Shown: piece after piece, positions 4,861 through 41,048 of the stretch
How positions within the stretch are numbered: position 1 is the first letter of the stretch
How the letters are laid out: each line of letters begins with the position of its first letter
Source: Thermoflexus hugenholtzii JAD2
GTDB lineage: Bacteria > Chloroflexota > Anaerolineae > J036 > Brachytrichaceae
DNA: 44,167 bases
Direction of reading: 5' to 3'
NCBI GenBank assembly: GCA_945877855.1
Contig: CAMDWA010000018.1
Location: 1 to 44,167, forward strand
Notes under the pieces: model-generated
What the model was told of the DNA's origin: nothing
The model's database searches: none
Seen by the model: the letters and a program-made list of their open reading frames with translations, nothing else
Translations under genes and position numbers: made by a program

Positions 4861-4953
4861 AAGTGCTGAGTGCAAAGTGTAAAGTGTAAAGTGAAAAGTA
4901 GAAAGGCCAAAAATCTGCTACTTTCTACTTTCTACTTTCCACTTTGCACTTTC
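4861..4953. repeat. AAAGTG-type spacer repeat, purine arm plus complementary arm
   Basis: Copies of AAAGTGC/AAAGTGT/AAAGTAG-like units run to about 4905, then the complementary CTTTCTACTTTC units run to the next gene's stop. Other members: 11648-11745, 23824-23957, 26080-26153, 26907-27025 and a short one at 28374-28400. Confidence 0.75.
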
Positions 4954-5874: not shown

Positions 5875-6816
5875 TTAAGATTTTGAGCCATCGATACGAA
5901 TGCGGGGATCGGCGACTGTATAGAGCAAATCGGTGAGCAAATAGGTGATGCCCCACAACACCGCCACAATCAGCACGGTTGCCATAATGACGGGGTAATC
6001 GCGGGCTTGGATGCTATCGATAAAATAGCGCCCGACGCCCGGAATGTTGAACATTCTTTCGAGGATGGCTGAGCCGGTGAGGGCGTTTGGAATGAAGGGG
6101 CCGATGACGGTGAGGATGGGAATGAGGGCATTGCGCAGGGCGTGTTTGAGCACCACAACCTTAAATGTTAGGCCTTTGGCGCGGGCGGTGCGCACATAAT
6201 CTTGGGCCAATACTTCAAGCATCCCGGCGCGGGTATAGCGGGCAATGGTTCCGAGTGGCAATAGGCCGAAGATGATGACGGGCAAGACCGCCGTCAATGG
6301 CTCATTGACCAAATCCCAGCCGGTATAGGGCAGTAGTTTCCAGCGAATTGAAAATAAATAGAGGCCGAAAATACCCAAGGCAAACACCGGCACGGTGATG
6401 CCGACGACTGAGATTAATGTAACCACATAATCGATCAGCGTATTTCGTTTGATGGCGGCCCAGACCCCCAAGATCAACCCAAGCGGGATGCTCCATGCCA
6501 ATGACAAAGCCCCAAAAATAAGGCTGGCTCCCCAATATTTGCCAAAGAGGGTGACGATTTTGTCGCCCTCGGCGACATAAGAGGTGCCAAAATCGCCTTG
6601 TACGGCGTTGACGACATAGCGCCCCCACTGCACATAAAATGGTTGATCAAGCCCATATTTGCGCTTGATATTTGCCATCGCTGCCTCGGAGAGCGGTTGT
6701 TTGTTTTGATCAAACGGCCCACCGGGCACGTTATACATGAGTGCGAAGGTTAGAAATGACACAACTAGCAAGACGAAGGCCATGCCGCTGAATCGGGTAA
6801 TGAGAAATCGGGCCAT
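5875..6816 (-). CDS. Peptide/opine ABC importer permease, DppB/OppB type
   Basis: The protein from the ATG at 6816 has 313 residues: MARFLITRFSGMAFVLLVV opens with the usual first membrane helix of OppB/DppB, followed by the NIKRKYGLDQPFYVQWGRY segment, and the contact loop around DYVRTARAKGLTFKVVVLKH. An upstream in-frame ATG at 6897 would add 27 residues (MKDESSILNPSSF and onward) that are simply the translation of the GGATGAA spacer repeats, so I reject it. No strong ribosome site precedes 6816. It is paired with the DppC-type gene immediately downstream. Confidence 0.92.
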   Translation of the reverse strand: MARFLITRFSGMAFVLLVVSFLTFALMYNVPGGPFDQNKQPLSEAAMANIKRKYGLDQPFYVQWGRYVVNAVQGDFGTSYVAEGDKIVTLFGKYWGASLIFGALSLAWSIPLGLILGVWAAIKRNTLIDYVVTLISVVGITVPVFALGIFGLYLFSIRWKLLPYTGWDLVNEPLTAVLPVIIFGLLPLGTIARYTRAGMLEVLAQDYVRTARAKGLTFKVVVLKHALRNALIPILTVIGPFIPNALTGSAILERMFNIPGVGRYFIDSIQARDYPVIMATVLIVAVLWGITYLLTDLLYTVADPRIRIDGSKS

Positions 6817-6821
6817 TTTTA

Positions 6822-6912
6822 TAGAAGGATGAAGGATAAAGGGTGAAGGGTGAAGGGTGAAGGATGAAGGATTGAGGATTGAGGATTCATCCTTCATCCT
6901 TCATCCCTTATC
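6822..6912. repeat. GGATGAA-type spacer repeat hairpin
   Basis: About ten GGATGAA/GGGTGAA units are followed by CATCCTT units, forming a long imperfect hairpin between the dioxygenase gene and the permease gene. The end of the dioxygenase frame comes just before it. Confidence 0.75.
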
Positions 6913-6914
6913 CT

Positions 6915-7691
6915 TCAAAAGGGTGGTTTTGCATAGCCGACACCAAAGGGTTCTTCGGGGCGGTTCCATTCGCCGAGCAGGGCGCGGCGTAGCGGGGTGG
7001 TGCGAGCCATAAAATCTTTGTCGTTGCCAAAGCGGTCTGATTTGATCAGCCAAGGCGGGGCATACACCATGTGCATGGTGAAGCGATCCCAATCCATCTC
7101 ATTTTTGTGTGAGCGATGCCACACCCCTTGATGAAATAATAGCGCGGTGCCGGGCTTGCCGCACACCACTTGGGTAATGGGAAAATCGGTATCTGGCTTG
7201 ATGCTTTTTGGCAATGGCATCGATACATTGTGGCTGCCGGGGATCATCGCCATGTTGCCTTGATTGGGCTGCGATTGATCGGTGAGGTAATAGCCGATGC
7301 GCAATTGCATGAGCGGTGTCGGCAGGGCCAAGCGTCGAAAATCATACACGCTTGAGCCGTCTTGATGCCATCCCCCTGATTTGCCGCCTGCCGGTTGCAC
7401 GGTGCACCATGTGCTTTGCAAAATAAAATAATCGCCCATGATGGCGCGCACTTTGGCGAAGGTGGATGGATGGTCGATCAATGCTTCGATGGCTGGCTCA
7501 GTTTCGTATAAATGACCGAGTTGTCGCCATTCGCCTTTGGGGTAAGGGGCGTGGGCACGTTGTGAGGCATCTAAACAGGCTGCGACTTCGGCGGGGCTGA
7601 GTGCATCGGGGATGATGAGATAGCCAAATGTCTCGAACATAAACCGTTCTTCTTCGGTTAATGGGCCGGGTTTTGCAATTGGTTCAAGCAT
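6915..7691 (-). CDS. Phytanoyl-CoA dioxygenase (PhyH) family Fe(II)/2-oxoglutarate oxygenase
   Basis: The 258-residue protein shows the cupin-fold iron site of the PhyH family: the HxD pair in GGWHQDGSS (H109, D111) and a distal histidine in GVWHRSHKN (H192 or H195) with a nearby arginine for 2-oxoglutarate. The GNMAMIPGSHN segment (145-154) is also typical. It should hydroxylate a small molecule in the cytosol. It is preceded by an AAAGGG ribosome site and by a strong hairpin, and stands between the binding lipoprotein gene and the permease genes of the same importer, so it probably acts on the imported compound or a product of it. The natural substrate cannot be named. Confidence 0.88.
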   Translation of the reverse strand: MLEPIAKPGPLTEEERFMFETFGYLIIPDALSPAEVAACLDASQRAHAPYPKGEWRQLGHLYETEPAIEALIDHPSTFAKVRAIMGDYFILQSTWCTVQPAGGKSGGWHQDGSSVYDFRRLALPTPLMQLRIGYYLTDQSQPNQGNMAMIPGSHNVSMPLPKSIKPDTDFPITQVVCGKPGTALLFHQGVWHRSHKNEMDWDRFTMHMVYAPPWLIKSDRFGNDKDFMARTTPLRRALLGEWNRPEEPFGVGYAKPPF

Positions 7692-28346: not shown

Positions 28347-28454
28347 CACAAATTTTGAGTTCTGAGTCTTGAGTGCAAAGTGCAAAGTAAAAAGTGCATA
28401 GGTTTGATTAAAACTCGAAGCTTTCAGCACTTATGTCGAAGGTCGAGCGCTGGG

Positions 28455-28958
28455 TTACGGCATCGGATATTGCGCAAGCGCCGCTTGCCAAGCCTGCGCT
28501 TGGGTATCCCCTTTCTCTCGAAGTGTTCTGGTCAACGTTGCACGCAACCCAGCCAAATCATCATAGGGGTTTTTCTGAAGCGTCAAGGCTTGTTCTTGTG
28601 CACATCGCTCGGCCCATTGCGGCGATATTTGCCCTAACAGTTCAGTTTGTCGCGCAAATATCATGCGCCGACAATCTTTGGCGGGGTCACGCCGCGCAAA
28701 TTCGTAGGCCACACCCATGCCAAAGGCGACATCCGAGCAAATCCAATACAAAAGCGCCTCAAGGTCTGTGGTCGTTCGTCGCTCCAATTCGCTGCCGCGC
28801 TCGCAACCAACGTAGTGATAGCCATCGCCGTCTATTTCAATATGCATTCGCCCACTTTGCTCGCTGTAGCCAAATGTCGGCAATGCACCTTTGCCCACAC
28901 CCATGCAGCGAACCCGCGCAAGCGCGGTCTCACGAATGTCGTCAAGACTTTGTAACAT
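28455..28958 (-). CDS. Imm63-like immunity-family protein
   Basis: From the ATG at 28958 (MLQSLDDIRETALARV) the protein has 167 residues. The segments GDGYHYVGCERGSELERRTT, LEALLYWICSDVAFGMG, DCRRMIFARQTELLG and SPQWAERC fit what I recall of the Imm63 family, named for linkage to polymorphic toxins but also found as free-standing genes. The longer frame to 29015 runs over the end of a peptidase E remnant in another frame and is rejected. No toxin gene is adjacent. The gene is short and stands alone, as in gene cassettes. Family assignment is from memory of the motif pattern, so moderate confidence. Confidence 0.6.
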   Translation of the reverse strand: MLQSLDDIRETALARVRCMGVGKGALPTFGYSEQSGRMHIEIDGDGYHYVGCERGSELERRTTTDLEALLYWICSDVAFGMGVAYEFARRDPAKDCRRMIFARQTELLGQISPQWAERCAQEQALTLQKNPYDDLAGLRATLTRTLREKGDTQAQAWQAALAQYPMP

Positions 28959-28965
28959 GGTGACA

Positions 28966-29103
28966 TCATAATTCAGGGCGCAAAGCGCCTCCAATGACTT
29001 CCGCGATAATTTCAATTGTGCCAGCCATCACCTTAATGGCGGTCTTGTCGTCCATTACATCACTGGGTATTGACAGCTTGATGGCCCATTTTCTGCATGG
29101 CTC
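28966..29103 (-). pseudogene. Remnant of a second peptidase E gene (C-terminus only)
   Basis: The minus frame reads WAIKLSIPSDVMDDK, then TAIKVMAGTIEIIAEV, ending at TGA 28966. It matches the C-terminal end of the intact peptidase E at 29960 (WAADIGIPAYAIDEQ, then TAIKVVNGTVEVISEG). A stop interrupts the frame just upstream of 29103 and the rest of the gene is missing, so this is a decayed or truncated copy. Confidence 0.7.
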
Positions 29104-29116
29104 ATCTGTTTATCTT

Positions 29117-29899
29117 TTATCTCAAGTGATGTTGAAAAAACAAATCCCACGATGCAATTTCTGCGGTTGGGATTTCGGTGTGGCCTCCCGGGTTGATATG
29201 CATTGATTTGTCAGAACTGCCAAATGCATTGAACAGCGCGAGACCATATTCGCGGCTACGAATTGTGTCATCCCACTGAAACGCAAAGCGCAGCGGAACC
29301 GTAATACGCGCGGCTGCATTCTTAAAGGCAACATGATCAGGATGCAATTGAGCGAGGCCAAACACTGCACATTTAAAGCGTTGGTCTTTGGCCAATAGCG
29401 GCACGCCAATCCACGTCCCTTGAGAAATCCCCCAGTATGCGACCGAATCAACGTCTGTGGCAAAAAACACGATGCTTGTATCAAGCGCCGCTTGCCATTC
29501 GGTTACTGCTTGGGTCGCCAGTTTATCCAAAAACGCGATTTTGTCGCCAGCACTTAAAGACGGCGCGGTCACATCGCCTCGTATCCGGCTTTGTGTTTTT
29601 CGGCTTTCTGCTTCCGCCTCTGATCGGGTAATGCGGTCACCGTGTTTTGGCGCGTCAATTGCAAGGCTGGTCCAGCCAAAGGTTGCCGCATAACGAATTG
29701 CCCGATCCCGAATTGACTGCGTCTTCTTGTGCTGCGATCCCCCGTGCCCCATGGCAATCATTACCCGCGATTTAACCGAATCACGGGGTTTCCAAATCAC
29801 ACATGGCACATCTTCACCAGCAACATCAATGCTGAATTCCACTTCGCAAATGTCATTTTCTAATTGGGTCATTTTGCTGATGAATGGCCTATGGTTCAT
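29117..29899 (-). CDS. Alpha/beta hydrolase (dienelactone-hydrolase-like)
   Basis: The 260-residue protein has the nucleophile elbow GISQG (S159), an acid at D210/D211 in FQWDDT and a histidine at H240 in NPGGHTEIP, in the right order for a Ser-His-Asp triad. An oxyanion-type MGHGGSQ (50-56) lies before the lid. No signal peptide is seen. It hydrolyses an ester or similar bond; the substrate is unknown. An alternative start is M10 (29872). It ends 14 bases before the peptidase E remnant and follows the intact peptidase E gene on the same strand. Confidence 0.82.
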   Translation of the reverse strand: MNHRPFISKMTQLENDICEVEFSIDVAGEDVPCVIWKPRDSVKSRVMIAMGHGGSQHKKTQSIRDRAIRYAATFGWTSLAIDAPKHGDRITRSEAEAESRKTQSRIRGDVTAPSLSAGDKIAFLDKLATQAVTEWQAALDTSIVFFATDVDSVAYWGISQGTWIGVPLLAKDQRFKCAVFGLAQLHPDHVAFKNAAARITVPLRFAFQWDDTIRSREYGLALFNAFGSSDKSMHINPGGHTEIPTAEIASWDLFFQHHLR

Positions 29900-29959
29900 A
29901 GATGTAATGATTTAGGGGACTCTATTTTTAGGGAGCATTTCACAAGTTCCCACACCCAA

Positions 29960-30622
29960 TCAGGATGGAAACTGCTTCCAATGGCCTTCAGAGATGACTT
30001 CGACGGTTCCATTGACAACTTTGATCGCTGTCTGTTCATCGATGGCATAGGCCGGGATGCCAATGTCGGCCGCCCACCGCGCTGCGTCAGCCAAGGTGTT
30101 CGTGGGGAAAGCGTCTAAGTGCGGGAAAATTGAAAAGTTGACGACTCCCAGAGTGCGGTCGTCCGGCGCGGATGGCCACTCGACAAAGTATGCCCCGATT
30201 CGCGGTGTCATCACCATGCTGCCAGCACTCACTCCCACCCAGACCATGTTGGGCAGCGAAGGCAGCAGATCAGCCAGCCCGGACGCTCGCATCCAATGGC
30301 ACAGATACGTTGCGTCGCCGCCATCAACCAAGAGCACGTCTGCCTCTCGGAGCCAAGGCACCCATCGCTCTGCACCGATGGTGGGTAGTGCAGTGAGTTC
30401 GAGGACACCGAGTGATGCCCAGCCTAAGCCGGACAGGTATCGGAATTCGGTTCCGGCGGCGATGAAACCGCGCACCGAGGCTGGGCCGCACATCGGGTGA
30501 CCCCACTGTGCGGTCGGGATGCAGAGGGCATGACACTCGGAGATCGGTTTACTCAGCAGGTTAACCAGTGCATCGTGGATGCTAGTGTTTGTGACGCCCC
30601 CGGATGTGAGAAGAAGTTTCAT
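29960..30622 (-). CDS. Peptidase E-like protein (S51 family, aspartyl dipeptidase type)
   Basis: From the ATG at 30622 (MKLLLTSGG) the protein has 220 residues, the PepE size. It shows VDGGDATYLCHW (99-110), the nucleophile in WVGVSAGS (S132) and the histidine in IFPHLDAF (H168). The family has a class I glutamine-amidotransferase-like fold and cleaves Asp-X dipeptides in the cytosol. The frame to 30685 adds 21 residues without support. The same family appears again as a remnant 0.9 kb downstream, suggesting duplication or serial capture. Confidence 0.8.
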   Translation of the reverse strand: MKLLLTSGGVTNTSIHDALVNLLSKPISECHALCIPTAQWGHPMCGPASVRGFIAAGTEFRYLSGLGWASLGVLELTALPTIGAERWVPWLREADVLLVDGGDATYLCHWMRASGLADLLPSLPNMVWVGVSAGSMVMTPRIGAYFVEWPSAPDDRTLGVVNFSIFPHLDAFPTNTLADAARWAADIGIPAYAIDEQTAIKVVNGTVEVISEGHWKQFPS

Positions 30623-30753
30623 GATGGCGCTTCTTGGCAATGGAATGAGGCCCGAAAGGCCCATCCAGCTTGAATTGTATAACAATCAACGCTTTCAATA
30701 ATAAAAGAGAAGTGCTATTGCTTCTCAGAGATTCTTTCTTTGCGATGTCTGCC

Positions 30754-30848
30754 GGTCAACGATTGTTTGTGCTGCGCACGTGACCGGTCAGAGTTCATAC
30801 AGGTGAAAAGCCGCTGGACATGGATGTCTGCTATAAGCCGTGTTGGGT
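30754..30848 (-). other. attC-like imperfect palindrome behind the DUF6713-like gene
   Basis: On the minus strand it starts ACCCAAC (fits RYYYAAC) and ends GTTGACC (near GTTRRRY), with a GACATCCATGTC hairpin inside. It lies 28 bases beyond the gene's stop, the normal place of an integron recombination site. The outer stem pairing is weak. Confidence 0.4.
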
Positions 30849-30875
30849 GCGCTTATGGATGCTCACTTCTCACAC

Positions 30876-31244
30876 TCAACCGATTCGGTTGAGAACGAGA
30901 TCGATCGCACCAGCTAACCCTGCACCAATAATCCATATCCATGACATCACTGTCTTGAATTCGTATTTTGGATGCCGAATGAACACGATATGCAGTAACA
31001 CATGAACAATCATGAATAGGTCTAGCGCGTCCATAGCGGCTCTGGCGCGTTCAGCTGAACCCCCTAATGCCCACTGAAACCAGACGAATAGTGGCAAGTG
31101 CAGCCACATAAATGCGTGAAATCCGAGTTTGTCTTCCATCCACGAGGTGATGGGTAGCACCCGCCACTCATGGCAGCGAACGGCATCCATCTCATGGATG
31201 ATCAAACAGGCAAATGCAACGAGGAAAAATGGATACTCATTCAT
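30876..31244 (-). CDS. Small polytopic membrane protein, DUF6713-like
   Basis: The 122-residue protein has four hydrophobic helices (about 5-20, 43-63, 70-90 and 98-118). Its first helix ends with LIIHEMDAVRCHEWRVLP, a His/Glu/Asp-rich signature I associate with DUF6713, a family of short inner-membrane proteins of unknown role. The conserved polar residues near the membrane surface suggest a metal or active site. No ribosome site is visible before the ATG. It stands alone between an attC-like site and a MITE. A short hairpin (CTCAACC/GGTTGAG) covers its stop. Confidence 0.6.
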   Translation of the reverse strand: MNEYPFFLVAFACLIIHEMDAVRCHEWRVLPITSWMEDKLGFHAFMWLHLPLFVWFQWALGGSAERARAAMDALDLFMIVHVLLHIVFIRHPKYEFKTVMSWIWIIGAGLAGAIDLVLNRIG

Positions 31245-31348
31245 ATGATGACCAACTCATGTCCAACATCATATTAGTCTTTGGACAAGTAGCCCGAAGC
31301 CTATCTGTAACCGCAAAAAACGCACAGCACATGTAGTATACATAAATT

Positions 31349-31510
31349 AAGGCTGTTCAAAAGTCGCCTCGTCATTCCCTCGAAAGAGGGAATCCATAAC
31401 GTGACAGGCACAAATCGAGTGGGTTGCGCCATTTTTTGCGTGCCTAGTTATGGATCTCCGCGTTCGCGGAGATGACGAGTTGAGCGCAGTGCTGACTTTT
31501 GAACAGCCTT
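31349..31510. mobile_element. 162-bp MITE, copy 1
   Basis: Perfect 17-bp terminal inverted repeats AAGGCTGTTCAAAAGTC enclose two internal hairpins (one on CTCGAAAGAG, one on CTCCGCGTTCGCGGAG). Copy 2, of identical length and about 80 percent identical by eye, lies at 40887-41048. It has no coding capacity. Confidence 0.85.
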
Positions 31511-31564
31511 ACCAGACGCGTGATGTGCCCCCCTAAAAGTGGAGTCACATCACGCTGATGAGCC

Positions 31565-31644
31565 GCCTAACGGCAGGCGTTACCGGCAAGGATGGGAATT
31601 GGCGGGAAAAGTCCCACACTTGACCGGCACACGCGGGATTGGGC
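31565..31644 (-). other. attC-like site behind cheY
   Basis: The plus strand begins GCCTAAC and ends ATTGGGC, giving minus-strand core ends GCCCAAT and GTTAGGC. Inside, GCGTTACCGGCAAG pairs imperfectly with the far half (GACCGGCACACGC), making an 80-bp bulged palindrome. It lies 62 bases past the cheY stop. Confidence 0.5.
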
Positions 31645-31706
31645 ACATTTTGCAAGACGGTTTTGAATACCAACTGCTGTATATTCGATGTCACCCTTGA
31701 AGCCAA

Positions 31707-32102
31707 TTAAACCACTTTCGCTAATTTTTCGAAAATTTTCGTCAGTTTTTCATCGAGTGTGGCAGCGGTAAATGGCTTGACTATATAGCCATTGGCACCG
31801 GCCTGCGCTGCGGCAATGATGTTTTCCTTTTTTGCTTCAGCCGTTACCATCAATACCGGCAACTTGGACAAAGCCGGATCGGCCCGAATGTTTTGCAACA
31901 TCGTTAATCCATCCATGTTCGGCATATTCCAGTCGGAAATGACAAAATCGAATGGCTCACCTCTTAGCTTGGCAAGTGCCATGTCGCCGTCCTCAGCTTC
32001 ATCAACATTGGTATATCCTAATTCCTTCAACAGGTTTCGGATAATGCGGCGCATTGTCGAGAAATCGTCAACAATTAAAAATCTCATTTTGATATCGATC
32101 AT
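31707..32102 (-). CDS. cheY: Chemotaxis response regulator CheY (proteobacterial type)
   Basis: The 131-residue single-domain receiver has D12, D13 and the phosphorylation site D57 in [10 protein letters not shown], the Thr in [11 protein letters not shown] and the Lys in VKPFTAAT. From [12 protein letters not shown] to the end it is strikingly close to the enterobacterial/proteobacterial CheY as I remember it (roughly two thirds identical by eye), including [14 protein letters not shown]. It would be phosphorylated by CheA and bind FliM at a flagellar motor. No cheA, receptor or flagellar gene is present here. An AAAGGAG site precedes the ATG. It is followed by an attC-like site and flanked by repeats, so it looks like a captured cassette. 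Confidence 0.93.
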
Positions 32103-32135
32103 TCGTTACTCCTTTGATTTTCTTATTTTGGTTAT

Positions 32136-32340
32136 GCTCATGAACTTGGATTTATTGTATATCATACTTGTCATTCCGACCCTTCGACAAGCTCAGGGTA
32201 AACTACGAGGAGGAATCTTTGCGTAAATTGGGTGTCGCACCGATTTACCGCAAAGACCCCTCGCTTCGCGTCGGGGTGACAAGCTAGTTCATTTAGATTG
32301 TTGGACGCAGAGCGCTTGCGCCCTGCGTCTTTAAATTTCG
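32136..32340 (-). repeat. Dispersed repeat (family 3), reverse copy
   Basis: The reverse complement matches 9952-10140 at both ends: one end reads TCATGAACTTGGATTTATTG on the plus strand, and the other ends AAATTTCG. The core has GTCATTCCGACCC and a GCAAAGACCCCTCGCTTCGC arm. It stands just upstream of cheY and may carry its promoter. Confidence 0.7.
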
Positions 32341-32470
32341 AAAGAAAAGCAGATGTCAACTGCCTTTAACATAGCATTTCCGAACGAAACCACTTTCTTT
32401 TCTGATGGTTAGCATCGTTGTTACAGATCGCTTAAGCTTAATCTTTGCCGACCACAAAAAAACATCACGA

Positions 32471-32594
32471 ACCTAATGGTTTGCGTTACTGGTTGGCGGG
32501 TGGGATGCTCTCTGCCAACGAAAACCAGGAATTTGCACCAATTTAGATTAGAACGCACACGCTACCCGCCAATCCAGTGCACGCTTTGTTGTGC
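32471..32594 (-). other. attC-like site behind the cupin gene
   Basis: On the minus strand it opens GCACAACAAAGCGTGC and closes AACGCAAACCATTAGGT, so the core sites are one or two bases from RYYYAAC and GTTRRRY. The arms CACTGGATTGGCGGGT and ACCCGCCAACCAGT pair across a 124-base site. It lies 122 bases past the cupin stop, at the boundary to the cheY unit. This is the best attC candidate. Confidence 0.6.
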
Positions 32595-32716
32595 ATTTTT
32601 GGGAGCGCGCGAAATGTGTATTTTATAGATTGCGTAAAAAATAAAATTCTACCATGGTCTCTATGCAACACGGGATAAATGTTGCAATGGGAGCTACTCG
32701 TATTTTTTTTTACATT

Positions 32717-33262
32717 TCAATGATGCGGGGCGCGGTATCCGAGCAAGCGACCTAACGCAGCGAGCAGAGATAGTCCCAGGCGCTGTAAAGGAATAGGTAT
32801 GCCAGCGCGGTATGTTTGGCTTGCGATCTCACTCCCAATGACAGCCAGATGCAACAGGTTTATTTCACCTTTGGCATTAGCCTTGCCAGCCTGGGCAAGG
32901 GTGAACATGGTCTCAAAAAAATAATCTGCGCCAAGGGCGGGACGAAAACTGTGACGCAGATGCAGTTCATCAGGTCCCGCATTCCAGCAGTTGACATGAA
33001 ACGCGCCGGGCGGCACGACTACAGAATCTCCTAAATGGGCTTCATGCTCCATTCCATTGAGGCGGTAGCGCGCCGTACCCGATACAATATCGAAACGCTC
33101 CTCCTGATTAAGTTGCACGTGTTCAGGGAAGACGGGCGTGGTACTGGGGGGCATATAATGATCGAACTCCACTACAGATCCATCCGTGTCTTTCTCAGTC
33201 TGTTGGAAAACGATCCGCTCCTTTGTGTTGGGGTTATTCAAAGCCTGACCTTTAATCGCCAT
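32717..33262 (-). CDS. Cupin-domain protein with hydrophobic C-terminus
   Basis: The 181-residue protein has a cupin barrel: PVFPEHVQLNQEERFDIVSG, carrying His and Glu, and VVPPGAFHVNCWNAG with the second-motif His. A hydrophobic amphipathic tail follows (IPLQRLGLSLLAALGRLLGY), which may touch the membrane. A ribosome site (AGAGGT) precedes the ATG. The membrane protein gene lies 91 bases upstream on the same strand without an attC-like site between them, so both may form one cassette or operon. Function unknown. Confidence 0.75.
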   Translation of the reverse strand: MAIKGQALNNPNTKERIVFQQTEKDTDGSVVEFDHYMPPSTTPVFPEHVQLNQEERFDIVSGTARYRLNGMEHEAHLGDSVVVPPGAFHVNCWNAGPDELHLRHSFRPALGADYFFETMFTLAQAGKANAKGEINLLHLAVIGSEIASQTYRAGIPIPLQRLGLSLLAALGRLLGYRAPHH

Positions 33263-33353
33263 ACCTTACCTCTGTATACATTAAGAAATATTTTTTCTAA
33301 AATAATTCGATTGTCGCGGCAGTATATCCTGATTGCTATGAATTCTTAATAAC

Positions 33354-34148
33354 TCAAAGCTGGTGGGATGCGAAAGCGCGGTTTGTTAAAAAGCCCAGCA
33401 TTAAGACGGCCAGCGTGAAACTTCCTAGCCATAGCCAATCGGCTGTGTCAGCGATAGAGAACAACTCCAGATGAATGATAGAAGCCAGCAATACAAATAC
33501 GGCGAAGACCAGCATGGCCGTTACGGCGACGCGAATCTCAAGCCATCTTTGACGGCGGGCAAGCATTAAACTTCCTATGCCATAAGACAGAAATGGAGCC
33601 GAGTACAACTGCGCCAGCAAAGGCGTGATCTTCCACGGCCATACGGTCACCATAAAATTGGGTAAAAACAGTAAGCCCAATGCGAGAATCGTGACAAGAC
33701 TGCCTTGTCCTAGCAAGTAAGTGTTTGCCCACTTTGGAAGAACGGCTCCAGTAGGCGACATATCGGTTGCGCGTTCTTGCCACATCAGCCAAAGGGCGAT
33801 GATCGGATAAAAGAAATAGGCGCTGAACCAAACCCACACTTGGGGGCGGCTGTAGTCAAATTCATTCAAGTAAAAAAGCGAAACGATGAACAACATCCCT
33901 GTCCAGATGGCGATCATCGGCAATATGACCCGCACTTCAGCCCAGCGGCGAGCAAGCATACACCCCACCATAAATGTCGCACCAGAAAAATACATCGCTC
34001 CGAGGAAACGCGCATGCAGGGGCGGCACCATCCAAGGGATCGCTTCATCTACATGGGTTGGGATAAAATAGCCCCAGATGCCTACCCATAGTGCTAACAG
34101 ACCAACTGCAGCAAAATATATTTTTTGTCCCCGAGTTACAAATGTCAT
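33354..34148 (-). CDS. Unknown seven- to eight-helix membrane protein
   Basis: The 264-residue protein has about seven to eight hydrophobic segments, starting YFAAVGLLALWVGIWGYF, followed by a conserved-looking loop PPLHARFLGAMYFSGATFM. No transporter or enzyme motif is visible. I do not recognise the family. No ribosome site stands out before the ATG. It is upstream of the cupin gene and downstream of an attC-like site (34235-34364). Confidence 0.7.
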   Translation of the reverse strand: MTFVTRGQKIYFAAVGLLALWVGIWGYFIPTHVDEAIPWMVPPLHARFLGAMYFSGATFMVGCMLARRWAEVRVILPMIAIWTGMLFIVSLFYLNEFDYSRPQVWVWFSAYFFYPIIALWLMWQERATDMSPTGAVLPKWANTYLLGQGSLVTILALGLLFLPNFMVTVWPWKITPLLAQLYSAPFLSYGIGSLMLARRQRWLEIRVAVTAMLVFAVFVLLASIIHLELFSIADTADWLWLGSFTLAVLMLGFLTNRAFASHQL

Positions 34149-34234
34149 AGGATTATCTCGTTTTTAACTTTAAGGTTTGTTTGATTGTGCGCGTCTGATG
34201 ACGTCTTTAATTCTACTTGGATATTGCGGCTGAT

Positions 34235-34364
34235 ATTGAACGGTTTTCAATGCATTTGTATATTGGCGGGCGTGGATTCTGTTCGAGAGTAGAAAAAACT
34301 CGAAGCCAGACAACTACTTGAAAATGGCACAAACTCACATACGTTGGCGCACGCTTTGTTGGGC
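34235..34364 (-). other. attC-like site upstream of the membrane protein gene
   Basis: On the minus strand it opens GCCCAACAAAGCGTGC, identical over AACAAAGCGTGC to the site at 32471-32594, and closes GAAAACCGTTCAAT, close to the AAACC-plus-core ending there. The inner stem is weak, so it may be a decayed site. The rest of the 34149-34547 gap shows no gene. Confidence 0.5.
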
Positions 34365-34497
34365 TGGGATTGAAGATGCAATTTTTTTTATTTTAACACT
34401 TGTTTAACACTTGCCACTTTTATAAACACACCTTATTCTTTCAAGGAAAAACGCCACTCATTGTGCTGAACTATTTTTTGAATTGCTCAGCGCCAGC

Positions 34498-34553
34498 GCC
34501 CAACACTGGCTTCAAGCGTTGTTGTGCCGTCATTGCGGCACTTTCTGTTACTG
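34498..34553 (-). other. Possible short attC-like site overlapping the DUF6886-like stop
   Basis: The minus strand starts CAGTAAC, where TAA is the gene's stop, and ends GTTGGGC, with a GTGCCG/CGGCAC hairpin between. R-box overlap with the stop codon is common in cassettes, but the outer arms do not pair well. Confidence 0.35.
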
Positions 34554-35084
34554 CGGCACTTTCGGCTCATATCCATCCACCGGCGCCGCCGCGTTCCTCA
34601 TCCGCGATATTGAAAACCGCAGCGTTGACTTTGCCACCTCATCTCTCAGTGGCCATAGCGACGGTAGCATCCGAAACTCGACACGGCTCTTGGCGAGCTC
34701 ACCCAATAGATCGTCTATTCGACGGCAGTTCGTGGGACGGATTGCCTCCCGTGACACATAGTAGGCAGCATGGACATCGTCCATCACAAACGTTTCGTTC
34801 GGCATCGCATACTCATACATAACGCACCGCCTCATTCGATCCAGCCATGCTGACTCAATCGCCACAACGCGTTCTGCTGCTGTTTGCGCCATCCAACGCA
34901 TCCGATCTTCTTGCGACGTGTATTCTGCGACCCCATACGTCACTCGCGGACAATCCCGCGGAACAAGAAAGTTCGTCGCTCCTTCTTCCGCGACCGCCCA
35001 GACAACTTCGTAAGTGTGATATTTACTTGCTCGCGGATGGAAGACTTGAATCCCGGGTTCTTCGCTGTAGTGAAATAGCTGCAT
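34548..35084 (-). CDS. DUF6886-like protein
   Basis: The 178-residue protein begins MQLFHYSEEPGIQVFHPR and continues VVWAVAEEGATNFLVPRDCPRV, which fits DUF6886, a family of small cytosolic proteins of unknown function. Further conserved-looking parts are VAIESAWLDRMR and YEYAMPNETFVMDD. A strong GGAGGT ribosome site lies 6-11 bases before the ATG at 35084. Having its own ribosome site and a recombination-like palindrome at its stop fits cassette structure. The ADP-ribosyltransferase-like look of the HYS opening is only a hint. Confidence 0.65.
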   Translation of the reverse strand: MQLFHYSEEPGIQVFHPRASKYHTYEVVWAVAEEGATNFLVPRDCPRVTYGVAEYTSQEDRMRWMAQTAAERVVAIESAWLDRMRRCVMYEYAMPNETFVMDDVHAAYYVSREAIRPTNCRRIDDLLGELAKSRVEFRMLPSLWPLRDEVAKSTLRFSISRMRNAAAPVDGYEPKVPQ

Positions 35085-35558
35085 CTGTTACCTCCAGTGG
35101 AGGTGCAGTTTCGCATGGGCATACTCCCGATCTCTCCGACAGGCACAATATATATATATTATGCATCAAGTGAAATGGAGAATATCATAAAATGTTTTCT
35201 AAATATCATTTGTTATAACCTCGTGTACGCTGTGTCATGACAAGTTTCACGCCAGCGAACTTGGGGCATTCGATATTCGTGATTATCTAATCTACCTCGC
35301 CGCATCGGCACCCAATTGGCTTATAACGGGCGATTAATGCAACCCCCAAAGCGGTGCGTAGATCATGCGCGCCAAATGCCCCAAGGCGACGGCCCGCCCG
35401 AGCAATAGGCATCCGTTTTCGTTCCATAATACGCTTATTCTCGCGCCGTATTGGCGGGGTGGGGCGACAAGCGTCATGGGAATTTGTCAAATTTCGCAGG
35501 GGATTTTTAGCGTATCATTGCCCCTATAGCCATGCCGCGCAAAATACAGGATAAATAA

Positions 35559-35720
35559 ATGGAGCACACTCAGATATTGCTTGCTGAATTGGCAAAATAC
35601 GAGGTGGCGTTTATCGCCAATGCCATTGCCGATGCTGAAATAAATCAAGCCAGCAGCGCACCCGCATCGCTTGTGCCAGCCGAATTATTAGCGGCATTGT
35701 GCGACCACCCCGGGTCTTGA
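35559..35720 (+). CDS. Small ORF or truncated gene (53 aa)
   Basis: The frame reads MEHTQILLAELAKYEVAF and ends LLAALCDHPGS. Composition is protein-like (helical, Ala/Glu/Leu-rich). Removing one G in the CCCGGG run would extend it with LEEVMRF, so it may be a frameshifted or truncated gene. No family is recognised and it is the only plus-strand frame in this stretch. Confidence 0.3.
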   Translation: MEHTQILLAELAKYEVAFIANAIADAEINQASSAPASLVPAELLAALCDHPGS

Positions 35721-35858
35721 AGAGGTGATGAGATTTTAGAGCAAATTCTGGTTATGTCCGTTGCTTAGACGGCTTATTTCCTGCCTAATTTGAAGCAAAA
35801 CACCTTGCGAAATTCTGCAAGTAGTGACTTCATTTTTAGAGGGTCACTTCCCTATACT

Positions 35859-35917
35859 TTACAACGACCAAAGCTCACCCGCCGATGAAGGAGGTCGCGT
35901 GGAGCATTTTGTTAGGC
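35859..35917 (-). other. attC-like site behind the 450-aa gene
   Basis: On the minus strand it runs from GCCTAAC (a perfect RYYYAAC) to GTTGTAA, 59 bases, about the length of a short attC. Inside, GCTCCACGCGACC pairs with GGCGGGTGAGC around a TTCATC loop with bulges. It starts 15 bases past the stop. Confidence 0.55.
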
Positions 35918-35931
35918 AATAAATGTTAGTC

Positions 35932-37284
35932 CTATAGCCCAAGTTGATTCTCGATGTATTTTTGTGGGACACCTGTTGCAATGTCTCCACCCTTCCGGGC
36001 AACCTCGATTAAGAACTTCTTTAATTTTTGACCTGCTCTCACCCTATCTGGCTTTGGTGCTCTTTTATCCTCGACTTCATAGATCGCAGTGACAAGCTCA
36101 TTGGCTCTTGTTTCGCCGTACTTCTGAACCAATTCAAGCAATTCTGGCCCTTGTGCCCCTAAGTTCTGATTGCCATTGATTTCTTGAGCTATTACACCAT
36201 TAACCGTTCCTACTATTTTCGGATTAATGTTAATAGTAATACTCGCCTTGTTATTGGTATCAATGTCACGAGAAGTACTTCCTATCATCAGAGAGGCGCC
36301 AGTTCCACTAAATGAGGGAACTGTAGCTTCAATAAGTTGGTTAACAGCTTTCCAGTCAATATCACCTGGTATTTCGTCAACTAGTTCTGATTCTAAGCGC
36401 TGCTTAATGCCTAATACTTTTCGTTCTCGCTCATGTTTTAAGTCAACATGAAGACGCTTTGCTTCTTTACTGTATCGTACGAGTATTTCGGATAACTTTT
36501 TTGCATCCATTGATTTAGACACCAATATTGCTTCGGCCGCGGATTGGTCTCGGACACACAGATCCAAAAAATGTGTGAAGTCAGCAAATTCTGCGCTTAG
36601 TCCATGCTCTCCTTTCGGTTCATCTCCATGAAATTCATAAATAATTCCTTTGTCTGTTCGTTGTTGATCAAGCCGAACGGCAATATGCCCCACAGTTGAA
36701 AGATATTCTCTAAATAGTTGCAACAGCCTATCCGTCTCGTTTGACCATATTCGGCCAGACGGAACATAGACCCGAAAAAGTAAGTTTGCTTCGGTATCTC
36801 GCAGAAATGACTCGGCAAGAACAGTTACCTGAGCATTTCTTTTATAAGGCATGATCTCCAGATCTAGATTCTCAATTACCTTTAGAACTTTGTCTAAATC
36901 TTCCTTCGATGGTCTCCAACTTAATTGATCCCATTCATCACTGCCAGCCACGCCTGTCAGCAGGTCTTCATAAACGAAAACCATATTTGGCTTTTTAGCA
37001 ATTCTTTGAAATAGCCTGCGACTTACTTGTTCGTAATCCTTAGAAGCGATTAAGGATATGACATGTGGATCTAGCTTTATTAATACACTAGAAATTTCAA
37101 AGGTGTCGAAATATTCAACTATGCTTTGCCAGTTTTCTGGTTTTGAATTCAGGAGCTTTTGCTTATATTGTCTCTTAGAAGCCTTAAGCAGACTGATTAC
37201 GCCTTCATGAGCAATGTTTCCTAAAAGCAAGACTAGAGGCTTATCGGTTTCTAGGTCAAAAGTATCTGTATCTGGGTCATACAT
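35932..37284 (-). CDS. Unknown 450-aa cytosolic protein, possible defence-type cassette cargo
   Basis: No family is recognised. The N-terminal third (PLVLLLGNIAHEGVISLLKAS, ending near VFVYEDLLTG) looks like an alpha/beta fold. A middle part (about 155-230) has LLFRVYVPSGRIWSNE and a charged helix follows (KRLHVDLKHERERKVL). After a low-complexity Ser/Thr/Asn stretch, residues 345-375 read INPKIVGTVNGVIAQEINGN, a Gly/Asn turn pattern like the short linkers of effector-associated proteins, then a helical C-terminal domain. Base composition is clearly AT-richer than its neighbours. It sits beside an attC-like site and next to the recombinase remnant, in the first-cassette position. Confidence 0.7.
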   Translation of the reverse strand: MYDPDTDTFDLETDKPLVLLLGNIAHEGVISLLKASKRQYKQKLLNSKPENWQSIVEYFDTFEISSVLIKLDPHVISLIASKDYEQVSRRLFQRIAKKPNMVFVYEDLLTGVAGSDEWDQLSWRPSKEDLDKVLKVIENLDLEIMPYKRNAQVTVLAESFLRDTEANLLFRVYVPSGRIWSNETDRLLQLFREYLSTVGHIAVRLDQQRTDKGIIYEFHGDEPKGEHGLSAEFADFTHFLDLCVRDQSAAEAILVSKSMDAKKLSEILVRYSKEAKRLHVDLKHERERKVLGIKQRLESELVDEIPGDIDWKAVNQLIEATVPSFSGTGASLMIGSTSRDIDTNNKASITININPKIVGTVNGVIAQEINGNQNLGAQGPELLELVQKYGETRANELVTAIYEVEDKRAPKPDRVRAGQKLKKFLIEVARKGGDIATGVPQKYIENQLGL

Positions 37285-37684
37285 AGTGAGTCTCTTTTTC
37301 GCTTAACATATGTATCATACATCAAACGAAGCAAAGTGTATTATAAAATGCCTTATAAATATGATTTTGTGTAATCTATATCATAGATATCTCCCATAAA
37401 TAATCCAAAACCACCTCCTAAACTACTGGGTCAAGTAGGTCAAATCATGCGTTTAAAACATATAAGCTTAAGTACTAGATTACATTCCGATTAACAATTC
37501 TGGACTTTCTAAGGCTCAGAAAAATTTATTCAGGTCATTTTTGACATTGAAGATGCTTTTGACCTCATCACAAGCTTTTGTAGTGCGTTTTAAGATATAC
37601 AAAATCATGTGTCACCAAAATTATTCAGAATGTAATCTGCTGCGCGTAGCTATGTCAACAATATTAAAAATTATCTTTTTTATT

Positions 37685-37853
37685 GTAAAAGGTCAACATG
37701 ATAGCGGAACCGTCATTTCGAGCGAAGCGAGAAATCTTTGCGTAAATTGAGGCTAAAAGCGTATGTTATGCAAAGATTTCTCGCTTCGCTCGAAATGACA
37801 GATGTTAGGCAAAAATGACAATTTTATGCTTCTACTAACATCTTGACCCTTAC
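37685..37853. mobile_element. MITE-like element (family 2), uninterrupted copy
   Basis: Ends are GTAAAAGGTCAACATGATAG at the left and, on the other strand from the right, GTAAGGGTCAAGATGTTAG. The core is a perfect 30-bp inverted repeat (37712-37741 with 37770-37799; GTCATTTCGAGCGAAGCGAG and onward) around a 28-base spacer. It adjoins the recombinase remnant. The remaining part of the 37285-37974 gap, up to 37684, is AT-rich and holds no recognisable gene. Confidence 0.8.
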
Positions 37854-37857
37854 AAAA

Positions 37858-37938
37858 ACAGCAAATATTGGCAAACATGCCAGTTGCCACACTTTTCGGC
37901 ATAGTTTTGCTATGCATTTGCTCGAAGCATGTTACATA
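37858..37938 (+). pseudogene. Fragment of a tyrosine recombinase, integron-integrase type
   Basis: The plus frame reads TANIGKHASCHTFRHSFAM and then HLLEACY. This matches the box II region of tyrosine recombinases (HTFRHSFATHLLE), with the catalytic His and Arg of HxxR; the preceding KHASC wording is what I recall from integron integrases. Everything before and after, including the LGH and tyrosine boxes, is missing. A MITE ends at 37853, immediately before it. The fragment reads away from the cassette-like genes, the normal geometry of an integron integrase. Confidence 0.65.
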
Positions 37939-37974
37939 TACCCCGATCCTCCCCACTATGGTAAATTACCCCCC

Positions 37975-39153: not shown

Positions 39154-39241
39154 TGGTTGGGCAGTCAAGCAGTCAGCACTGCCTTAGGTTGTTATTTTGT
39201 ATCTTGGGAATAAAAAAATTCTTAACCGTTCAGGTCTGATT

Positions 39242-39414
39242 TCACGTCTACGTTTACGTTCACGTCTACGTTTACGTTTACGTTTACATTCACGTCTACG
39301 TTTACGTTCACGTCTACGTTTACGTTCACGTCTACGTTTACGTCTACGTTTACGTTTACGTTCACGTCTACGTTTACGTTCACGTTTACGTCTACGTTTA
39401 CGTTCACGTTTACA
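39242..39414. repeat. Hexamer tandem repeat, YACGTY, about 29 units
   Basis: Units TACGTT, CACGTT, TACGTC and CACGTC follow each other with one TACATT exception. Each unit contains the self-complementary ACGT. All frames stay open across it (RLRLR-, NVNVDV-like translations), an artefact of periodicity. Confidence 0.9.
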
Positions 39415-39496
39415 AAATTTCGTCGAAATCACGATAGGGTCTTTGGAATCAGGCGCTTTGCCCTTGCTCCTAAAGACCCTATCAGTATGAAGACCG

Positions 39497-40872: not shown

Positions 40873-40886
40873 TATGTGTATTGATC

Positions 40887-41048
40887 AAGGCTGTTCAAAA
40901 GTCGATTCGTCATTCCCGCGAAAGCGGGAATCTATAACCAGACAGGCATAGGTTGACTGGTTTGCCGCAATTTTGACCTGCCACGTTGTGGATCTCCGCA
41001 TTCGCGGAGATGACGGGTTAAGTCGCGTGCTGACTTTTGAACAGCCTT
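40887..41048. mobile_element. 162-bp MITE, copy 2
   Basis: The 17-bp perfect terminal repeats AAGGCTGTTCAAAAGTC are identical to copy 1. The 9-base sequence TGTATTGAT occurs just outside both ends (40877-40885 and 41051-41059) and may be a target duplication. Confidence 0.85.

Follow-up and report, generated by a model that had tools for sequence, protein, structure and literature searches.

We examined contig C18 of a draft bacterial genome (4.43 Mb in 246 contigs, 78.7% complete). The entire contig of 44,167 bp, referred to here as the window, carries between its hisD and metB genes what is very probably a decayed chromosomal integron. Judged by near-identical named relatives, the host genome is of Anaerolineae type, within the Chloroflexota; its MetB protein is 99% identical to a record from 'Chloroflexi bacterium isolate REEB501' and 97% identical to one from 'Anaerolineae bacterium isolate AQU-02'. 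The region is flanked on the left by hisD (named by eye) and on the right by metB, which encodes a pyridoxal phosphate-dependent enzyme of cysteine and methionine metabolism. Positions 28455-37284 hold nine larger open reading frames (ORFs), every one on the minus strand and belonging to different families or to none, which confirms the run of unrelated, co-oriented genes described in an earlier sequence-only reading of this DNA. They encode an Imm63 protein, a 260-residue protein without a family, a peptidase of family S51, a DUF6713 protein, CheY, a cupin-like protein, a 264-residue protein, a DUF6886 protein and a 450-residue protein. In what follows, G000 is the window's own genome, G001, G002 and G003 are genomes of the same genus, and other G numbers denote further genomes of the class.

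Remains of an integron-integrase gene (intI) were found at two places. We searched by tblastn with 137 integrase queries at E ≤ 0.05, with no sum statistics, and searched 100 dinucleotide-shuffled versions of the 3-kb region in the same way. At the right end, the plus-strand tyrosine-recombinase fragment seen in the sequence-only reading proved to be the C-terminal fragment of an integrase (relic 1, 37840-37935), containing the motif HTFRHSFA. It aligns with positions 250-275 of TIGR02249 at 27.7 bits, below the family cut-off, is matched by 132 of the 137 queries with a best E of 1.4e-9, and shares 78% DNA identity over 69 bp with a full-length integrase gene on another contig of the genome, C158. 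An N-terminal fragment of relic 1, followed by a stop, lies on the same strand at 37396-37476 (84 queries, best E 1.9e-4). It is homologous at the DNA level to an N-terminal intI relic that lies upstream of the same metB in G001 (locus L068) and is itself matched by 125 of the 137 queries, with a best E of 2.5e-8. The second place, relic 2 (35230-35301, plus strand), corresponds approximately to residues 39-62 and is matched by 79 queries (best E 3.5e-5). The shuffled sequences gave a best E of 6.1e-4 and at most 63 queries on one spot; none of the 100 did as well as any of the three integrase pieces. The part corresponding to the IntI-specific extra domain is missing from both relics, and the locus holds no intact intI, only the relics at 35230-35301 and 37396-37935.

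Each N-proximal relic is preceded by an attI-like leader on the minus strand. Leader 1 (37301-37395) lies beside intI and has a crossover motif of the form GTTRRRY (GTTAAGC, 37301-37307); in leader 2 (35143-35241) the motif has decayed to ATTGTGC (35143-35149). Both are homologous to the sequence before the G001 intI relic, with identities of 85.6% over 90 bp, for leader 2, and 73% over 185 bp. Alignment A10 shows it extending as far as GTTGGGC in G001, GTTAAGC in leader 1 and ATTGTGC in leader 2; there it ends, and the GNAT, 450-residue protein and DUF6886 units begin. Leader homology that ends at the crossover with different genes beyond it is as expected from integron insertion at attI. The orientation also agrees with that of an integron: cassettes lie on the minus strand and relics on the plus strand to their right, so that the genes read away from intI. 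The double leader-plus-relic arrangement suggests that two copies of the integrase stood in tandem, which could have arisen through duplication or a second arrival. Relic 2, the N-terminal relic and the two leaders are additions to the sequence-only reading, whose proposal of a decayed integron is supported, but with integrase relics at two places rather than one.

An integron in this phylum is not unexpected, because intI has been reported from Chloroflexi (Nemergut et al. 2008, PMC2426708) and because 28 of the 99 class genomes surveyed, the window's own included, have a TIGR02249 match above the cut-off. For attC sites we collected 35 candidates, 34 from 20 stretches beside TIGR02249-positive integrases and one from G001. 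Model R1 was built from 15 of the 35 (alignment A4), each from a stretch whose integrase match has no stop. Model R2 comprises 38 sites, all from other genomes; four of these lie off integrase-bearing stretches (three on G022 C202, one on G001 C137), and three integrases beside other training sites carry a stop (G022, G084, G043). E-values from both models are rough, and the R1 scan of the window was unfiltered. The top two R1 matches in the window were both palindromes listed in the sequence-only reading, on the minus strand (35861-35917 and 31565-31644), and the third, at 12.5 bits, fell inside metB. With R2, for which both strands were scanned, the top three matches were again listed palindromes on the minus strand (31565-31644, 35861-35917 and 32471-32594), followed by a match of 13.5 bits. 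The six listed intervals occupy 0.6% of both-strand positions, and both models, trained on other genomes, rank listed sites first.

Five of the six palindromes stand as attC relics behind genes, all on the minus strand: A, C and D by model, and B, C and E by homology. Site A (35859-35917) has its R'' box in consensus (GCCTAAC) and a degenerate R' box (GTTGTAA); over 35861-35917 it scores 18.4 bits with R1 (E 0.0073) and 18.5 bits with R2 (E 0.011). The best-scoring site, D (31565-31644), combines R'' GCCCAAT with R' GTTAGGC, the latter in consensus, and reaches 25.6 bits with R2 (E 1.3e-4) and 16.2 bits with R1 (E 0.031). Site C (32471-32594; R'' GCACAAC, R' ATTAGGT) scores 14.9 bits with R2 (E 0.1), and its positions 32472-32590 share 86.6% identity, over 119 bp, with a G002 attC whose boxes are GCCTAAC and GTTAGGC. 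That homolog is about 1.2 kb, or one cassette, from an intact integrase, on its cassette side; among the 28 family genomes, own included, G000 and G002 have this attC, and G022 has a partial match of 35 bp. Site B (34235-34364; R'' GCCCAAC, R' GTTCAAT) is homologous over 34265-34320 to two attC-like sites of another Anaerolineae genome, G096 (E 4.6e-6 and 1.9e-4), one of which starts with AACAAAGCGTGC, as site B does. The AACAAAGCGTGC common to 32471-32594 and 34235-34364, together with the AAACC endings to which the sequence-only reading had drawn attention, is visible in the same alignment (A6). Site E (30754-30848) has a 5' arm homologous to an attC of G003 and a diverged 3' arm. The G003 counterpart, which ends a DUF6713 unit, scores 15.3 bits with R1 (E 0.087) and 25.1 bits with R2 (E 3e-4); site E itself gave no R2 match in the window up to E 10, and homology is its support. 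The sixth palindrome, 34498-34553, was dropped as unsupported by any test (R1 8.2 bits, E 6; no R2 match up to E 10). The three leftmost genes (29960-30685, 29117-29899 and 28455-29015) have no minus-strand R2 match behind them, nor did R2 match an attC between the genes at 33354-34148 and 32717-33262.

The sites are eroded: each of A to D has at least one box out of consensus, and none of the four has both in consensus. The z-scores of bottom-strand folding are 0.24 for A, -0.63 for B, -1.79 for C and -2.63 for D, and -4.3, -5.1 and -6.8 for three intact relatives. As free-standing hairpins, D (3 of 200 shuffles as good) and C (12 of 200) stand out; A, B and E (z 0.22) do not. The pairing of intact boxes with a foldable bottom strand that marks a functional integron was therefore absent. 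With its R boxes worn and its single strands folding poorly, the array is, on sequence grounds, probably inactive. Set beside the definition of a cluster of attC sites lacking integrase (CALIN), namely two or more attC sites spaced by less than 4 kb, the locus has five relics in 5.2 kb and no intact integrase, though a low E-value at only one site.

We then compared the locus across the genus, where these genes do not form a conserved block. The search for array DNA covered the best 40 of 254 candidates in G001 and the best 40 of 99 in G003. In G001 this attI-intI relic likewise lies upstream of metB, but the cassette is another one: it encodes a GNAT protein, and both boxes of its attC conform to the consensus (R2 37.6 bits, E 1.3e-7). 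G003 has no array at metB, and its metB alignment begins at window position 37928, at the end of relic 1; elsewhere it carries the DUF6713 unit (window 30807-31347, 94.8% identity over 541 bp) with an attC at its end. The G002 locus (L043), which holds the attC homologous to site C, is another locus altogether, with an intact integrase that has a different N-terminus. Further single attC matches lie on G003 C302 (L197, 303-360; R2 28.6 bits), on G001 C247 (L093, 727-804; 21.1 bits) behind a GNAT gene, and on G001 C137 (L092, 4735-4794; 60 bits) behind a CHAT gene.

Integron genes also occur elsewhere in the window's own genome. C158 (L007) encodes, at 5999-7138, a full-length integron-type integrase of 379 residues (TIGR02249 328 bits, cut-off 265), whose match to the family is split into two parts by extra residues, an insertion in the catalytic half. 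The contig holds no R2 match better than E 0.84. The neighbours of this gene are a DUF6855 gene and, named by eye, ligA and a uxaA-like gene, and a 97% identical protein is present in another data set. On C199 (L097, 599-1503), a lone DUF4386 gene has behind it an attC that keeps R' and R'' in consensus (R2 35.9 bits, E 2.2e-5) and starts with AACAAAGCGTGC, as do window sites B and C; no integrase match was found on C199. These two contigs lend some weight to the idea that the window array arose by off-target insertion of cassettes by an integrase encoded elsewhere, one proposed route to a CALIN (PMC8618304), and that the integrase fragments beside metB have nothing to do with it. The leaders and relics, however, stand in canonical position and orientation and adjoin the first cassettes, and in G001, too, a cassette adjoins the same attI-intI relic at its crossover motif. 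We consider off-target insertion very unlikely. A related arrangement, in which the integron of the genus is dispersed, the unlinked C158 integrase serving scattered single cassettes (DUF4386 on C199 and, in relatives, CHAT and GNAT in G001 and DUF6713 in G003) and the metB array being a fossil that supplied some of them, seems unlikely.

The region also contains mobile-element debris. A palindromic repeat resembling a miniature inverted-repeat transposable element (MITE) lies between the two pieces of relic 1 (37712-37799; 85% self-inverted) and has copies in G001 and G003. Other MITE-like repeats are at 31346-31510, 32135-32343 and 40884-41048, and the families of 31346-31510 and 37712-37799 are present in many copies in G001 and G003. 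The end of an IS3-type insertion sequence (IS; 35765-35850) lies 8 bp from site A, and its positions 35780-35850 are 91.5% identical to the end of a G001 IS whose transposase ORFs match HTH_Tnp_1 and rve. Seven of the eight listed IS-end matches in G003 stop at the same base and one stops a base earlier. At no more than 7 mismatches of 27, the IS3-type terminal repeat occurs in the window only at 35824-35850 and 31522-31548, about 20 bp or less from sites A and D. Elsewhere, one G001 IS end is 4 bp from a GTTAGGC and one G003 end about 260 bp from an attC. Homing of the IS3-type element to attC is not supported: none of eight IS ends in seven G003 stretches had an R2 match within 45 bp.

This debris raises the alternative that the region is simply a genomic island pieced together at a hot spot of rearrangement and that its palindromes are MITEs or IS ends rather than attC sites. 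The array does contain three MITE-like repeats and an IS3-type end, and the neighbours of metB differ among G000, G001 and G003, as do those of hisD between G000 and G001. None of the MITE palindromes, however, coincides with an attC site, and the attC sites either match models drawn from the arrays of other genomes or have attC homologs. An island of this kind is an extremely improbable explanation.

Together, the order of the integrase fragments, the strand geometry, the attC matches and the attI junction lead us to read the region as a decayed chromosomal integron platform with integrase fragments at two places, two attI-like leaders and five worn attC sites, at a probability of roughly 0.93. 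Several results pull the other way. At 23-32 residues the integrase pieces are short, and some match at E ≤ 0.05 turned up in 65 of the 100 shuffles. A middle piece of relic 1 (37505-37675) had to be dropped, as BLAST had linked it to its neighbour and it has no match of its own at E ≤ 0.05. Sites B and E were found by neither R1 nor R2, and site A folds no better than its shuffles (z 0.24). An R1 match of 18.5 bits also occurs on contig C11, in an ORF that by eye resembles a pseudouridine synthase, and R1 scores like that of site A therefore prove little at genome scale. Whole-genome scans with R1 and R2 listed no window site among the best 150 of 1804 (R1) and 150 of 1192 (R2) own-genome candidates scored. 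Because the best 150 candidates per genome were scored, these lists are incomplete for attC; the whole-genome R2 scan (best 150 candidates) also missed the G003 C302 site, which was found later.

The cargo between the relics is varied, and all of it lies on the minus strand. The gene nearest leader 1 (35932-37284) encodes the 450-residue protein, which has no Pfam match and shares 79% identity with one from a Nitrosomonas metagenome-assembled genome (MAG). Members of its family mostly stand alone and occur across phyla, and single longer relatives carry TIR, caspase (PF00656), CHAT or receiver domains. The protein resembles a so far undescribed sensor or adaptor belonging to an effector system. 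PADLOC, given eight of the nine array proteins, matched none of them, this one included. At E ≤ 1e-40 it was found in its own genome only, among 298 class genomes searched, with the best five of six G001 candidates scored. Gene absence from same-genus genomes is shown for this gene, for DUF6886 (G001-G003) and for DUF6713 (G001 and G002). The DUF6886 gene (34548-35084; Pfam E 1.6e-56) has homologs at E ≤ 1e-15 in 5 of 297 other class genomes, and the DUF6713 gene (30876-31244; Pfam E 8e-21) is present in 6 of 297. Beside these homologs we found no R1 match better than E 0.12, except in G003. Between G000 and G003 the ratio of nonsynonymous to synonymous substitution rates is 0.09 for DUF6713 and 0.013 for metB, and DUF6713 looks to be under purifying selection between these two genomes.

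The 264-residue protein (33354-34148) is membrane-like and has no Pfam family, and the product of 32717-33262 is cupin-like, with a Cupin_2 score of 26.6 bits, just under the cut-off of 27.2. The cheY gene (31707-32102) is of betaproteobacterial type and matches the NCBIfam CheY equivalog model at 229.7 bits (cut-off 189). Among 120 matches listed of 8000 scored, the 12 organism-named proteins are all from Pseudomonadota, at 87-91% identity, with Massilia first at 90%; nine of the 120, the window's own included, are 97-100% identical and have no organism label. On these similarities, CheY (90% to Massilia, among the matches listed) and the 450-residue protein are foreign cargo.

Scans of the whole window with Rfam at gathering thresholds and for tRNA genes returned nothing, and promoter-like sites in 35050-37950 were not in excess of those in shuffles. 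Between metB and the next gene, 39222-39430 is a long run of ACGTTT/ACGTCT/ACGTTC hexamer repeats. Short AGTGCAAAGT-type repeats occur at 28372-28401 and also at 4867, 11671, 23826, 26090 and 26908, and recur in G001 (L069) and G003 (L091). Between relic 2 and site A, 35356-35478 matches G003:C1:1973-2106 at 74% identity (E 1.1e-15).

In its working state, by analogy with the family, the right-end integrase would have inserted cassettes at attI one after another, the array reading leftwards. The integrase genes may then have been lost through deletion and the insertion of small repeats, after which the attC sites would have drifted, with damage to their R boxes and single-strand folding. The array would thereby have ceased to recombine itself while its cargo genes stayed open.

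Both the element and the way in which it has decayed are most likely of known kinds. Pseudogenes make up nearly one third of surveyed intI (PMC2426708), CALINs are treated as degraded integrons (PMC9024848) that can arise by several routes (PMC8618304), integrase inactivation is widespread in Xanthomonas (PMC12444791) and integron loss is described in Treponema (PMC3607928). Chloroflexota are named among integron-bearing phyla (PMC9668308) and among hosts of an integrase-linked gene (PMC12772301). Like the sedentary integrons of Xanthomonas with inactivated integrase (PMC12444791), the locus is a fixed platform whose intI is truncated or deleted, whose array is left behind and whose cassettes vary among relatives; it differs in its uncultured Chloroflexota host, in its tandem relics at two places and in that the attC sites are themselves eroded. 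Like CALINs (PMC9024848, PMC9668308), it groups attC sites, five in number and each less than 4 kb from the next, where no intact integrase is present, but here integrase remnants and attI are recognisable, and the model score is strong for site D only. The pseudogenes surveyed by Nemergut et al. (PMC2426708) are likewise of integron integrases, whereas here most of each gene is gone, beyond a mere stop or frameshift. A limited literature search found no decayed integron of this genus.

Within the genus, G001 (L068) shares the leader, the intI relic and the metB neighbour with the window and differs in its cassette and intact attC, and G002 (L043) shares the attC homolog. One uncultured Chloroflexota genus thus shows several integron states side by side: integrase and attC both intact (G002), an integrase relic with intact attC (G001), both decayed (the window) and no array (G003). 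It also shows betaproteobacterial-type cargo, CheY, between attC relics in a Chloroflexota chromosome. If the states are, as we suppose, successive steps of a single process, it would become possible to measure outside the Proteobacteria how fast integrons decay and in what order.

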